Program-made: the position numbers and the translations under genes | Assembly: GCF_008728855.1 (NCBI RefSeq) | Contig: NZ_CP042906.1 | Coordinates: 5,113,001 to 5,177,000, forward strand | Length of the DNA stretch: 64,000 nucleotides | Direction: 5' to 3' | From: Hypericibacter terrae | GTDB lineage: Bacteria > Pseudomonadota > Alphaproteobacteria > Dongiales > Dongiaceae | In this document: positions 37,014 to 39,658 of the stretch, piece after piece | Layout of the letters: the number at the start of each line of letters is the position of its first letter | Numbering within the stretch: position 1 is the stretch's first letter | Notes under the pieces: model-generated | The model's database searches: none | What the model was told of the DNA's origin: nothing | What the model saw: only the letters and a program-made list of their open reading frames with translations

Positions 37014-37291
37014 CCCCTCCCCCAGCTTTTGCAGGAGTGTCCGGGGAAAGTTTTCATGAATCGTATCAAAGTGTTGGCGCATATGGATTAGACGTGATCC
37101 GTGGGCGTGCGAGACTTAGAACAATAAAAATGAGTCGTTTGAATCCCTTGAGTCCGTTCCCCGGACAGTCCTGCAGCTTTTGGGGGAGGGCAGGGAGGGG
37201 GATGACTGGGTCCATGATCTCGTCGGGGTGCGAAGGGGCCGATACCGAGCAGCCCCCTCCCCAACCCTCCCCCAAAAGTAGGGGGAGGGGA
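37014..37291. repeat. GC-rich palindromic intergenic repeat, copy A (interrupted by MITE)
   Basis: Without the inserted element and one target copy the repeat is about 127 bp. It starts with a CCCTCCCCC/GGGGGAGGG hairpin and ends with a similar hairpin at 37265-37290. The inside contains GTCGGGGTGCGAAGGGGCC and ACCGAGCAGCCCCCTCCCC. The reverse complement of copy B (49243-49370) matches it almost throughout, so these are dispersed members of one family. It sits between the ends of two convergent genes. Confidence 0.8.
37032..37173. mobile_element. 142-bp MITE-like element, copy 1
   Basis: The ends CAGGAGTGTCCGGGGAAAG and (reverse complement of the right end) CAGGACTGTCCGGGGAACG match at 17 of 19 positions. 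The flanks carry a direct repeat CAGCTTTTG (37023-37031 and 37174-37182), a 9-bp target duplication. The inside is less GC-rich than its surroundings and encodes no transposase. It is identical over all 142 bp to the copy at 39498-39639. It lies in the loop of the left terminal hairpin of repeat copy A. Confidence 0.85.
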
Positions 37292-37301
37292 TCGTTGGAG
37301 G

Positions 37302-38108
37302 CTACGGCGCCCCCAGCCGGTGCGAAAGCCCGTCGGCGGCGGCGCGGACGGCCTCGATCAGCTTGTCGCGGCTGGCCTTGCCGAGGCGTTGCTCCGGGGC
37401 CACCACGCTGATGGCGGCGATGCAGCGCCCGGTGGCGTCGATCACCGGTGCGGCGACGCAGCCTGCATGATCGTTGGCCTCGTTGATCTCGACCGCATAG
37501 CCCTGCTTGCGGAACTTGCGGATCTGCTGGATCAGCTTGTCGACCTCCATCACCGCCTTGCCCGAGGGCGACTGGACGATGGTGCGCTTCAGCATCTCCT
37601 GCAGCGTGGCGTCGTCGAGATCGGAGACCAGGAGGCGCGCGGCCGCCGCCCAGTTGATCGGCACGCGCGAGCCGACGCGGCTGATGATGCGGATCGGATG
37701 GCTCCCCTCCTCCTTGATCAGCACCAGCATCATCTCGTTCTCGAGCACCGAGAACTGCACGGTCTCGCCGGTCGCGTCGCGCAGCGCCTCGACCACCTGG
37801 CTGCCTTCCTTGAGCAGGTCGATCTGGCTGCGATACATCATGCCGAGCTCGAACAGCTTGCGGCCGAGGAAGAGACGCCCCTCCTTGCCCATGCGCTCGA
37901 GATAGCCGGCTTCGGTCAGTGTCCGAGCCAATTCATAGGCGGTCGATTTCGGGATCTTCAGCGCCGACACGATCTCGACCACGGCCAAGGCTTCGCCCCG
38001 CGCCAGCATCAGCTCGAAGATCTCCAGCGCGCGCCGCACGCTGCGCGAGCCGGAGGCGCCGTCCTCCTCGCCCTCGATCGCCGTCCTTGCCCTGACCCTG
38101 GTCGCCAT
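37302..38108 (-). CDS. IclR-family transcriptional regulator 2
   Basis: The 268-residue protein has a winged helix-turn-helix (about residues 20-80, SRSVRRALEIFELMLARGEALAVVEIVSALKIPKSTAYELARTL in parts) and an IclR effector domain with INWAAAARLLVSDL and VAAPVIDATGRCIAAISVVAP. The ATG at 38108 follows GAGGTGA; the longer frame to 38276 would run through its own promoter. Two TTCCGG-type sites spaced 20 bp lie in the 112 bp shared with the divergent dehydratase, so autoregulation and control of the sugar-acid genes are likely. Confidence 0.9.
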   Translation of the reverse strand: MATRVRARTAIEGEEDGASGSRSVRRALEIFELMLARGEALAVVEIVSALKIPKSTAYELARTLTEAGYLERMGKEGRLFLGRKLFELGMMYRSQIDLLKEGSQVVEALRDATGETVQFSVLENEMMLVLIKEEGSHPIRIISRVGSRVPINWAAAARLLVSDLDDATLQEMLKRTIVQSPSGKAVMEVDKLIQQIRKFRKQGYAVEINEANDHAGCVAAPVIDATGRCIAAISVVAPEQRLGKASRDKLIEAVRAAADGLSHRLGAP

Positions 38109-38129
38109 CGCCGTCACCTCGACTGCCTG

Positions 38130-38147
38130 AATTCCGGCATTCTGCAC
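38130..38147. promoter_or_regulatory. IclR-type operator site c1
   Basis: AATTCCGGCATTCTGCAC lies 22 bp before the iclR 2 start and 74 bp before the dehydratase start. It is nearly identical to site b read on the minus strand. Confidence 0.55.
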
Positions 38148-38150
38148 TAT

Positions 38151-38167
38151 CGTTCGGTATTCTGCAC
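38151..38167. promoter_or_regulatory. IclR-type operator site c2
   Basis: CGTTCGGTATTCTGCAC repeats site c1 in direct orientation, 20 bp (two helical turns) away, with 13 of 16 core positions shared. Paired sites in the regulator's own promoter are the main reason to assign the motif to iclR 2. Confidence 0.5.
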
Positions 38168-38220
38168 CCTTAAGCTGCCATGCCGAACCGCCGCAGCACG
38201 GGGCCGCCAGGGAGAGACCG

Positions 38221-39354
38221 ATGAAAGTTACCGATATCGAGGTGATCGAGCTGCGCACGCCGGGCTGGACCGGCACGACCTTCGACGGGTCCTACGACAA
38301 TTGCGTGGTGCTGGTCCATACCGACCAGGGCATCTCGGGCCTGGCCGAGGTCGATTCCGTCCCGTCGGTGATCCGCGCCATCGTCGAGGCGCCGCGCTCC
38401 CACACCCATGCAATGGGCTTGAAGTCGATCCTGGTCGGCAAGGACCCGAGCGATGTCGAAGCGCTGTGGGACGAGATGTATGACGCCACCAGCTATTACG
38501 GCCGGCGCGGCGCCGTGATCCATGCCATCAGCGCGGTCGATATCGCGCTCTGGGATCTGCGCGGCAAGGTCAAGAGCAAGCCGCTCTCGGAGATCCTGGG
38601 CGCCAGGAAGCAGCGCGACCGGATCCTGGCTTACGGCACGGTCTATCCGCTGGGCGAGACGCCCGACGAGGTGCGCCGCACGATCGACCGCGGCCTCAAG
38701 CTGGGCCTGCGCTGCATCAAGATCGTGGCCGATCCCTTCTGGCGCGAGGACCTCGCCAAGACGACATCGCTGATCCGCGCCGCGCGCGAGCATGTCGGCC
38801 CCGGCGTCAGGCTGATGGTCGATGCCGCCACCGCCTGGAGCAAGGCCGAGGAAGGCCTGCCGCTGATGCCGATCTTCCGCGAATACGACTTCTACTGGGT
38901 CGAGGCGCCGCTGCCGCTCGACGACATGGAGGGCCATGCCAGGTTCCAGGGTTTTGGCGTGCCGATCGGCGGCGGCGACCTGGGCCTCACCACCCATTAC
39001 GAATATGAGCAGATGTTCGATGTCGGCAAGATCGACATCGCCCAACCCGACGTCACCATGGTGGGCGGCCTGACCGAGCTGCTGCGCTTGAGCGCCATCG
39101 CGAAGAAGCGCGGCAAGCGCGTCGTCACCCATGGCTACAAATCCAACATCACCATCGCCGCCAACCTCGCCTTCCTGGCGCAGCACTGGGCCGACGAGGT
39201 GCTGGAATATTCCACCAGCGAGTCCGCGCTGCGCTGGGAACTGACGAAGGAACGCTTCCCGATCGACAAGGACGGCAAGGTCGCGGTGCCGACAGGCCCC
39301 GGGCTGGGCGTGAGCCTCGATCCGAAGGTGGTGGAGCGGTTTCGCGTGCGGTGA
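38221..39354 (+). CDS. Enolase-superfamily sugar-acid dehydratase, copy 2
   Basis: The 377-residue protein has metal ligands D201 (LMVDAATAW), E228 (WVEAPLP) and D253 (IGGGDLG), K167 as the first barrel Lys, and H304 (VTHGYKSNI). It differs from copies 1 and 3: the residue two after K167 is Val, not Glu, and the third ligand is Asp. It therefore probably acts on a different acid or has a different stereochemical course. GGGAGAG precedes the ATG. It is divergent from iclR 2 and lies between the two MITE copies. Confidence 0.88.
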   Translation: MKVTDIEVIELRTPGWTGTTFDGSYDNCVVLVHTDQGISGLAEVDSVPSVIRAIVEAPRSHTHAMGLKSILVGKDPSDVEALWDEMYDATSYYGRRGAVIHAISAVDIALWDLRGKVKSKPLSEILGARKQRDRILAYGTVYPLGETPDEVRRTIDRGLKLGLRCIKIVADPFWREDLAKTTSLIRAAREHVGPGVRLMVDAATAWSKAEEGLPLMPIFREYDFYWVEAPLPLDDMEGHARFQGFGVPIGGGDLGLTTHYEYEQMFDVGKIDIAQPDVTMVGGLTELLRLSAIAKKRGKRVVTHGYKSNITIAANLAFLAQHWADEVLEYSTSESALRWELTKERFPIDKDGKVAVPTGPGLGVSLDPKVVERFRVR

Positions 39355-39368
39355 CGAAATTCTTCTAG

Positions 39369-39658
39369 CCCCCTCCCCTTGCGGGAGGGGGTAGGGGGAG
39401 GGGTTCTCTCAAGACGAGACTCGGAGTGCTGCGATGAGTTGCGATGGACGCTTCGCCTTCTCTTGAAGCGCCCCCTCCCCCTACCCCCTCCCACAAGCAG
39501 GAGTGTCCGGGGAAAGTTTTCATGAATCGTATCAAAGTGTTGGCGCATATGGATTAGACGTGATCCGTGGGCGTGCGAGACTTAGAACAATAAAAATGAG
39601 TCGTTTGAATCCCTTGAGTCCGTTCCCCGGACAGTCCTGCTCCCACAAGGGGAGGGGG
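39369..39658. repeat. GC-rich palindromic intergenic repeat, copy C (interrupted by MITE)
   Basis: Without the MITE and one target copy the repeat is about 138 bp. A left hairpin (CCCCCTCCCC-TTGC-GGGAGGGGG) and a right hairpin (CCCCCTCCC-ACAAG-GGGAGGGGG) flank a core of about 80 bp; the blocks next to the core also pair with each other. The core differs from copies A and B, so this is a related subtype. It fills most of the 342-bp gap 39355-39696 between two convergent genes; nothing else is seen there. Confidence 0.75.
39498..39639. mobile_element. 142-bp MITE-like element, copy 2
   Basis: It is base-for-base identical to copy 1 and has the same orientation. The flanking direct repeat is CTCCCACAAG (39488-39497 and 39640-39649), a 10-bp target duplication distinct from that of copy 1. 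It lies in the loop of the right terminal hairpin of repeat copy C. Short reading frames inside both copies are identical only because the DNA is; they are not likely genes. Confidence 0.85.

Follow-up and report, generated by a model that had tools for sequence, protein, structure and literature searches.

A probable IS4Sa-type miniature element of Hypericibacter terrae in REP palindromes and the target palindromes of its relatives

The window analysed in this study, a stretch of 64,000 nucleotides of the chromosome of Hypericibacter terrae (contig NZ_CP042906.1, positions 5,113,001 to 5,177,000, forward strand), contains two copies, A and C, of a miniature inverted-repeat transposable element (MITE), which both lie in GC-rich palindromes of the repetitive extragenic palindromic (REP) type. 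It is likely that this MITE is of the IS4Sa type and that a symmetric transposase complex reads the inverted half-sites of the palindrome in duplex DNA. The evidence comes from the distribution of the MITE in the genome, from two insertion sequences (IS) of the same chromosome, referred to as IS-A and IS-B, and from a survey of related elements.

Insertion of the MITE and of IS-A into REP palindromes

In the genome (5.89 Mb, one contig), ten identical copies of the MITE were detected, each with a length of 142 bp and the layout CAGGAGTGTCCGGGGAA…TTCCCCGGACAGTCCTG. All ten were found between the halves of GC-rich CCCTCCCC…GGGGAGGG palindromes of the REP type. The insertion near the loop of palindromic repeats with varying loop sequence, which the original prediction had described for the window, was confirmed when all copies of the genome were mapped as it had proposed. 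Eight of the copies have a target duplication of 9 bp, copy C has one of 10 bp, and the remaining copy has one of 11 bp; all ten duplications differ from each other and therefore represent separate insertions, and the outer flanks differ as well. The interior of the MITE has a low GC content (0.49 in comparison to 0.67 for the window). Within the family, the MITE was present in one of 17 genomes, namely its own; no match was obtained in the 16 other genomes, in plasmids, or in viral contigs, which were searched with one exact 28-base pattern.

A search for the ends of the MITE with up to two mismatches revealed the 20 MITE ends and, in addition, the ends of a longer element, IS-A (1,288 bp; ends CAGGGCTGTCCGGGGAA), which is present in 12 copies. 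Its transposase of 409 residues is 100% identical in 11 copies and 84% in one (L048), and none of the copies contains internal stops. Halves of palindromes of the type entered by the MITE were found on both sides of each of the 12 copies. Exact duplications were found at nine of them (9 bp in eight cases, 10 bp in one), and L041 possesses an 11-bp duplication with one mismatch. L043 and L049 show no duplication, and their left and right flanks do not correspond, a pattern that recombination between copies would be expected to leave.

The transposase of IS-A contains a DDE domain (PF01609, DDE_Tnp_1) and a DUF4372 domain (PF14294), and it matched the NCBIfam profile NF033592 (transpos_IS4_1) with 227 bits at a cut-off of 115. 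The catalytic residues D144, D209 and E314, with 64 and 104 residues between them, and the YREK motif (Y307, R310, E314, K321) are invariant in an alignment of four rows. In the respective family survey (PMC2266710), the IS4 family is defined by the motifs D(60-110)D(100-150)E and Y(2)R(3)E(6)K, and its table 1 gives ends of the form CA------T, a size of 1150-1750 and duplications of 8-10 bp for IS4Sa. IS-A exhibits both motifs, the profile match and a duplication of about one helix turn, and it resembles IS4Sa, as described there, in its ends (CAGGGCTGT), in its size of 1288 bp and in its duplications of mostly 9 bp; exceptions are the 11 bp of one MITE copy and, with the mismatch, of one IS-A copy. 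MITE and IS-A share 15 of 17 positions at the left end and 16 of 17 at the right end, as well as the target and the duplication length, and with 142 bp the MITE is too short for a transposase. Inside, both elements are unrelated (longest common word 9 bases). Judged from these sequence features, the MITE probably belongs to an IS4-family insertion sequence of the IS4Sa type, and the transposase that mobilizes it in trans is presumably that of IS-A or of a very close sibling.

A comparison with empty sites of related strains had also been suggested, and beyond the window it comprised one (L008, a MITE insertion) of the other 20 IS-A/MITE sites. In a genome of the same genus (G001), both sides of this site align, and the expected REP without MITE is present; its arms are alike save for one mismatch in the stem, and its loop is a different one. 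At the position orthologous to site C, no REP is present in G001, and the ortholog of site A (L198:393-1487) carries an IS110-family transposase gene (PF01548, PF02371) beside remnants of the same REP pair; therefore, the two sites of the window are uninformative with regard to the empty state. The identity of all ten MITE copies would also be understandable if MITE and REP had spread together as one composite repeat and if their association were thus due to descent. This explanation was rejected, because the ten duplications and the outer flanks differ and because the orthologous REP of the sister species lacks the MITE.

For the strict palindrome CCCTCCCCN2-16GGGGAGGG, 245 places were counted in the genome (control with the reversed pattern: 2), which by arithmetic amounts to about 0.1% of the genome. 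Since all 22 insertions of MITE and IS-A lie in this fraction, chance cannot account for the association. REPs presumably lie outside genes in most cases and are neutral, so that random insertion with survival of only those copies that reached harmless repeats might be considered. Such survival cannot yield 22 of 22 insertions in so small a fraction, and it was rejected in the main due to the register, as the position inside the repeat is nearly fixed.

The first 100 of the 245 strict palindromes were divided into two classes. Class I has 46 members, which are short (28 bases at most) and include an atypical one; class II (54) comprises matches of 31-32 bases with CCCTCCCCTTGCGGGAGGGGGTAGGGGGAGGG and its complement, including variants. 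Among the 19 IS-A/MITE insertions with exact duplications, 16 belong to class I and three to class II (binomial p 0.0007), although REPs of class II fold well, too. At all 16 class I sites the centre of the duplication is at most 1 nt away from the centre of the hairpin; at the three class II sites it is shifted by 2.5-3.5 nt, and a hairpin-centre rule for all 19 sites was hence rejected. A rule formulated post hoc for class II, CCCC|C-N7-G|NGGG, is not claimed here, as a weight matrix of class I failed to recover it and, with changed settings, recovered it at L002 alone.

The genome contains hundreds of REPs. No match to the IS200-like (Y1) transposase PF01797, which could have spread them, was found in the genome (the control was positive in 5 of 14 named genomes), and the genome thus shows no system of REPs and REP-associated tyrosine transposases (RAYT) by this marker.

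The features of both sites of the window are listed in Table 1. At site A, the joined flanks form a 10-bp stem (CCCTCCCCCA/TGGGGGAGGG) with the loop GCTTT, and the duplication extends over this loop and, to its left and right, over two closing pairs each. At site C, it covers the loop ACAAG and part of the left arm. Thus, a duplication of the loop and part of one arm, as originally assumed for both copies, applies to copy C but not to copy A. The lowest-energy DNA fold of site C is a larger hairpin with a 12-bp stem and a 16-nt loop, and the small hairpin with the ACAAG loop is one of two fold options. In comparison to shuffled sequences, the fold of site C is exceptional (z -4.4; 0/200 as good), whereas that of site A, for which the C-/G-rich stretch was shuffled, is unexceptional (z -1.7; 11/200 as good).

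Table 1. Positions of both MITE copies, their target duplications and the adjacent REPs in the window
Feature	Position	Strand	Sequence or remark
Left arm of the REP palindrome interrupted by copy A	37015..37022	+	CCCTCCCC
Left target duplication of copy A	37023..37031	+	CAGCTTTTG
MITE copy A	37032..37173	+	142 bp; left end CAGGAGTGTCCGGGGAA, right end (inward reading) CAGGACTGTCCGGGGAA
Right target duplication of copy A	37174..37182	+	CAGCTTTTG
Right arm of the REP palindrome interrupted by copy A	37183..37190	+	GGGGAGGG
Second, intact REP of the site A pair	37254..37290	+	
Intact partner REP of class II, site C	39369..39403	+	
Outer part of the left arm, class II REP entered by copy C	39484..39487	+	CCCC
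Left target duplication of copy C	39488..39497	+	CTCCCACAAG, 10 bp
MITE copy C	39498..39639	+	Same sequence as copy A
Right target duplication of copy C	39640..39649	+	CTCCCACAAG
Right arm of the class II REP entered by copy C	39650..39658	+	GGGAGGGGG

Targets of IS-B and of further related elements

The second IS4 element of the same chromosome, IS-B, occurs in seven copies, and its transposase is 41% identical to that of IS-A. All seven copies are located at the axis of another palindrome, which is characterized by CGTC or TGTC on one side and CCA on the other side. The duplication comprises 9 bp in all cases (GGCTTGACC or a variant), and its centre is at most 1 nt away from the hairpin centre at all seven sites; at three of them, a mismatch occurs among the seven inner arm pairs. 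The distribution of 22 IS-A/MITE insertions in one palindrome family and seven IS-B insertions in the other is highly uneven (Fisher p 6.4e-7). The available targets are uneven as well: the first kind offers 245 strict sites, the second at least 32, which were counted as exact matches to one stem variant. If random choice in accordance with this availability is assumed, the IS-B side is the decisive one (probability about 3e-7), and the IS-A side has little force by itself (about 0.07). As pure readers of structure would mix both families, the separate palindromes argue against IS-A/MITE and IS-B being of this kind. In addition, all three IS-B relatives of G001 are located in a palindrome of the IS-B type.

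Each of these three relatives (L102, L105 and L107) contains one TGA inside the transposase match, and they seem to have multiplied with a broken frame. Furthermore, the left tip of the IS-A copy L043 reads CACGGC and not CAGGGC; it resembles the tip of IS-B, and the flanks of this copy stem from two different REPs.

A further relative (42% identical transposase; G061, L126) is present in 13 full copies in Thiomicrorhabdus sp. Milos-T2. Its duplication is the decamer CCAGGCCTGG in all 13 copies, a perfect palindrome with 612 occurrences in the 2.7 Mb genome (control 0), an abundance which presumably resembles that of the highly iterated palindromes of cyanobacteria. Contiguous pairing stops at most 2 bp past the decamer at eight of the 13 sites. 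One of these eight, L238, possesses a long stem further out, and the other seven have no extended stem able to hold a loop and represent a loopless 10-bp palindrome. In uninserted copies of CCAGGCCTGG, the flanks are mostly unpaired past 1-2 bp.

For the survey of relatives, the best 80 of 500 confirmed loci were kept. Ten of these were left out due to a contig end in the vicinity, and the remaining 70 were examined together with four loci from a second genome search. Exact duplications were found in 42 of the 74 loci (38 from the survey), and the register of each site was set by its duplication. The 32 sites outside Bacteroidota represent 23 elements, nearly all from Pseudomonadota, and sites in one genome are not independent; their arms form 5.91 of 8 pairs on average in comparison to 3.01 with shuffled partners (0/2000 shuffles), and at least five pairs were found at 28 of them. 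In contrast, the ten sites of Bacteroidota showed a pairing of 3.10 versus 3.04 with shuffled partners, and only one reached five pairs. The loci left over, together with L106, amount to 33. Both ends were recognized in 16 of these, and the other 17 (no second end, or contig edge) were not counted. The 16 further loci, which also lie outside Bacteroidota, likewise revealed a high pairing (6.06 versus 3.49 with shuffled partners, 0/2000; at least five pairs at 12 sites).

In a tree of 37 transposases, the label "dyad" requires five changes, in comparison to 11.0 with shuffled labels (0/500); at its cut-off of 5/8 pairs, AT-rich sites (for example L161 and L172) are probably labelled wrongly. 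A group in which 11 of 13 rows lack a dyad is separated by a starred branch (100/99) of this unrooted tree.

Recognition of the target

IS4-family transposases form symmetric complexes, in which both element ends are joined about one helix turn apart, as in the structure of Tn5. Such a two-fold symmetric complex of transposase and DNA could capture a two-fold symmetric duplex target, as a palindromic duplex would offer an identical half-site to each half of the complex. The complex of IS-A would read two inverted arms in B-form DNA, a C-rich one on the left and a G-rich one on the right, and the two element ends would be joined on opposite sides of the dyad axis at a distance of about 9 bp, while the middle of the site would not be read. 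The loop sequence varies because the centre of the duplication is seemingly unread. Extrusion of a hairpin or cruciform would be unnecessary for this. REPs might be chosen as matching dyads that are abundant in the genome and probably harmless, and related transposases might have been retuned to other palindromes of their hosts, i.e. to CGTC-tagged REPs in IS-B and many relatives and to CCAGGCCTGG in Thiomicrorhabdus. From symmetric half-sites, a dyad-centred duplication, conserved arms, a free middle and the separate specificities of IS-A and IS-B would follow. We infer both the reading of the target as duplex and the domain responsible for it.

According to the original prediction, the structure of the target rather than its sequence is recognized. 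In this case, a hairpin or cruciform would be extruded during replication or by supercoiling, and the sequence would be nearly ignored. This could account for the location of all 22 IS-A/MITE and seven IS-B copies in palindromes, for the pairing of the arms in relatives with different arm sequences, and for the fact that longer dyads are weakly preferred in Thiomicrorhabdus. However, IS-A/MITE and IS-B have no palindrome family in common, the hairpins of class II are under-used and entered off-centre, seven of the 13 Thiomicrorhabdus sites are stemless beyond the loopless palindrome, and three of the seven IS-B sites contain a mismatch in the inner arm. Apart from the weak preference in Thiomicrorhabdus, the choice of sites did not follow pairing instead of sequence. 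Recognition of an extruded structure is therefore considered unlikely, and this part of the original assumption is not supported.

Recruitment of a transposase of little specificity by a REP-binding host protein, such as gyrase, DNA polymerase I (Pol I) or integration host factor (IHF), or by the end of transcription is even less probable. Binding of Pol I, gyrase and IHF to REPs of other bacteria is mentioned in PMC1525189. A bound protein would hardly explain a register that is exact nearly to the nucleotide, nor the occurrence of two related elements of one cell in different repeats, and the decamer of Thiomicrorhabdus is another kind of site.

Some observations weigh against the reading of inverted half-sites in duplex DNA by a transposase of the IS-A type. 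First, the exact register at class II sites is not explained by a model of symmetric arms. The weight matrix of class I misses this register (ranks 7/27, 14/25 and 12/25), and with other settings of the matrix L002 comes out at rank 1, L003 and L042 between ranks 4 and 13. Second, with regard to mobilization of the MITE by IS-A, the ends of MITE and IS-A differ at two (left) and one (right) of the 17 positions, in addition to their unrelated interiors. Third, the test with shuffled partners is hardly informative within the own genome because the sites of one family share their arms; the observed pairing was reached by 31 (MITE), 114 (IS-A) and 1498 (IS-B) of 2000 shuffles. Fourth, the 13 inserted sites of Thiomicrorhabdus showed more pairs than 67 uninserted ones from 300 kb (5.85 of 10 versus 4.39, with a one-sided p of 0.016; for run length in the same comparison, p 0.065), and longer dyads may thus help insertion in this genome. 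Finally, L108, whose transposase is 63% identical to that of IS-A, possesses a clean 9-bp duplication at a dyad-free site; L124 likewise shows a clean duplication without dyad, and the dyad of L182 is poor.

Comparison with known REP-specific elements

The core phenomenon, the insertion of an IS4 element at the axis of a REP, is already known from ISRm22 of Sinorhizobium meliloti. As described in 2006, all nine copies of this IS4-family element are located in REPs with insertion at the palindrome axis; the target consensus is highly palindromic, and three of the nine sites with imperfect repeats were taken for recombinants by the authors (PMC1525189). In 2008, ISRm22 was assigned to IS4Sa, with conserved target arms (PMC2266710). 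IS-A and the MITE resemble ISRm22, as described there, in family, REP targets and axis insertion. Differences are the duplication of 6 bp in ISRm22 versus 9-11 bp here, and the presence of a MITE, a word that does not occur in PMC1525189.

IS1397, ISKpn1 and ISPsy8 (IS3 family) as well as IS621, ISPa11, ISPpu9 and ISPpu10 (IS110 family) are REP-specific, too, but belong to other transposase families. The duplications of ISPsy8 (3 bp), of ISPpu9 and ISPpu10 (2 bp) and of ISPa11 (none) differ from the 9-11 bp found here. IS231A, which is not known to be REP-specific, presumably prefers the symmetric target GGG-N5-CCC. Like IS-A, it is a member of the IS4 family with some insertion specificity, and duplications of 10-12 bp are given for its subgroup (PMC2266710). 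New targets of IS1272 of Staphylococcus aureus are inverted-repeat structures as well (PMC5678879). IS1272 is the nearest example found of such structures serving as targets, but it acts in another way: it replaces the inverted repeat without target duplication, whereas the insertions described here leave the repeat in place and duplicate 9-11 bp.

In searches of an open-access library and in a review on prokaryotic MITEs from 2024 (PMC10969869), no MITE of such a type was found, nor a co-resident pair of IS4 elements with different palindrome families, nor a link between this branch and CGTC REPs. This study adds such a MITE, two co-resident elements with two palindrome families and the survey of relatives.

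We are slightly inclined to assume that dyad symmetry of the target is a fixed rule in a large IS4-type branch (DUF4372 plus DDE) of mostly Pseudomonadota, in which the palindrome that is read changes with its abundance in the host (GC-rich REPs, CGTC-tagged REPs or an iterated decamer). Co-resident members would use different palindrome families and carry MITEs, and a neighbouring, mainly Bacteroidota branch would lack the rule. If this is true, the difference between both branches should be traceable to residues of the transposase, although the tree cannot separate gain from loss. The elements described here show how a DDE transposon may occupy numerous repeat sites while needing neither RNA guides nor accessory genes. 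As the related transposases read different palindromes, they provide a natural panel for mapping the target-reading residues, and the two elements in one genome and the loopless palindrome of a relative are natural experiments which separate the reading of sequence from that of hairpins.

A CGTC or TGTC end on at least one side of the palindrome was found at 29 of the 48 sites outside Bacteroidota and at all seven IS-B sites, but at none of the ten sites of Bacteroidota. Judged from their sequences, these palindromes look like the CGTC REPs of PMC3733652. According to that article, CGTC REPs have no dedicated transposase, and their associations with other transposase genes are few and fortuitous. 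The IS4-type elements described here insert at the axis of such palindromes, and CGTC REPs thereby gain a set of axis-targeting elements.

At nine of the 16 further loci of the survey (L115, L119, L122, L125, L138, L145, L147, L152 and L155), inverted loops were observed instead of a direct duplication, the right loop being the reverse complement of the left one with 0-2 mismatches. Six of these nine loci carry the same CGTC/GTC half on both sides. They are perhaps hybrids which arose by recombination between copies in inverted (head-to-head) REP pairs, or they result from one insertion across two REPs.

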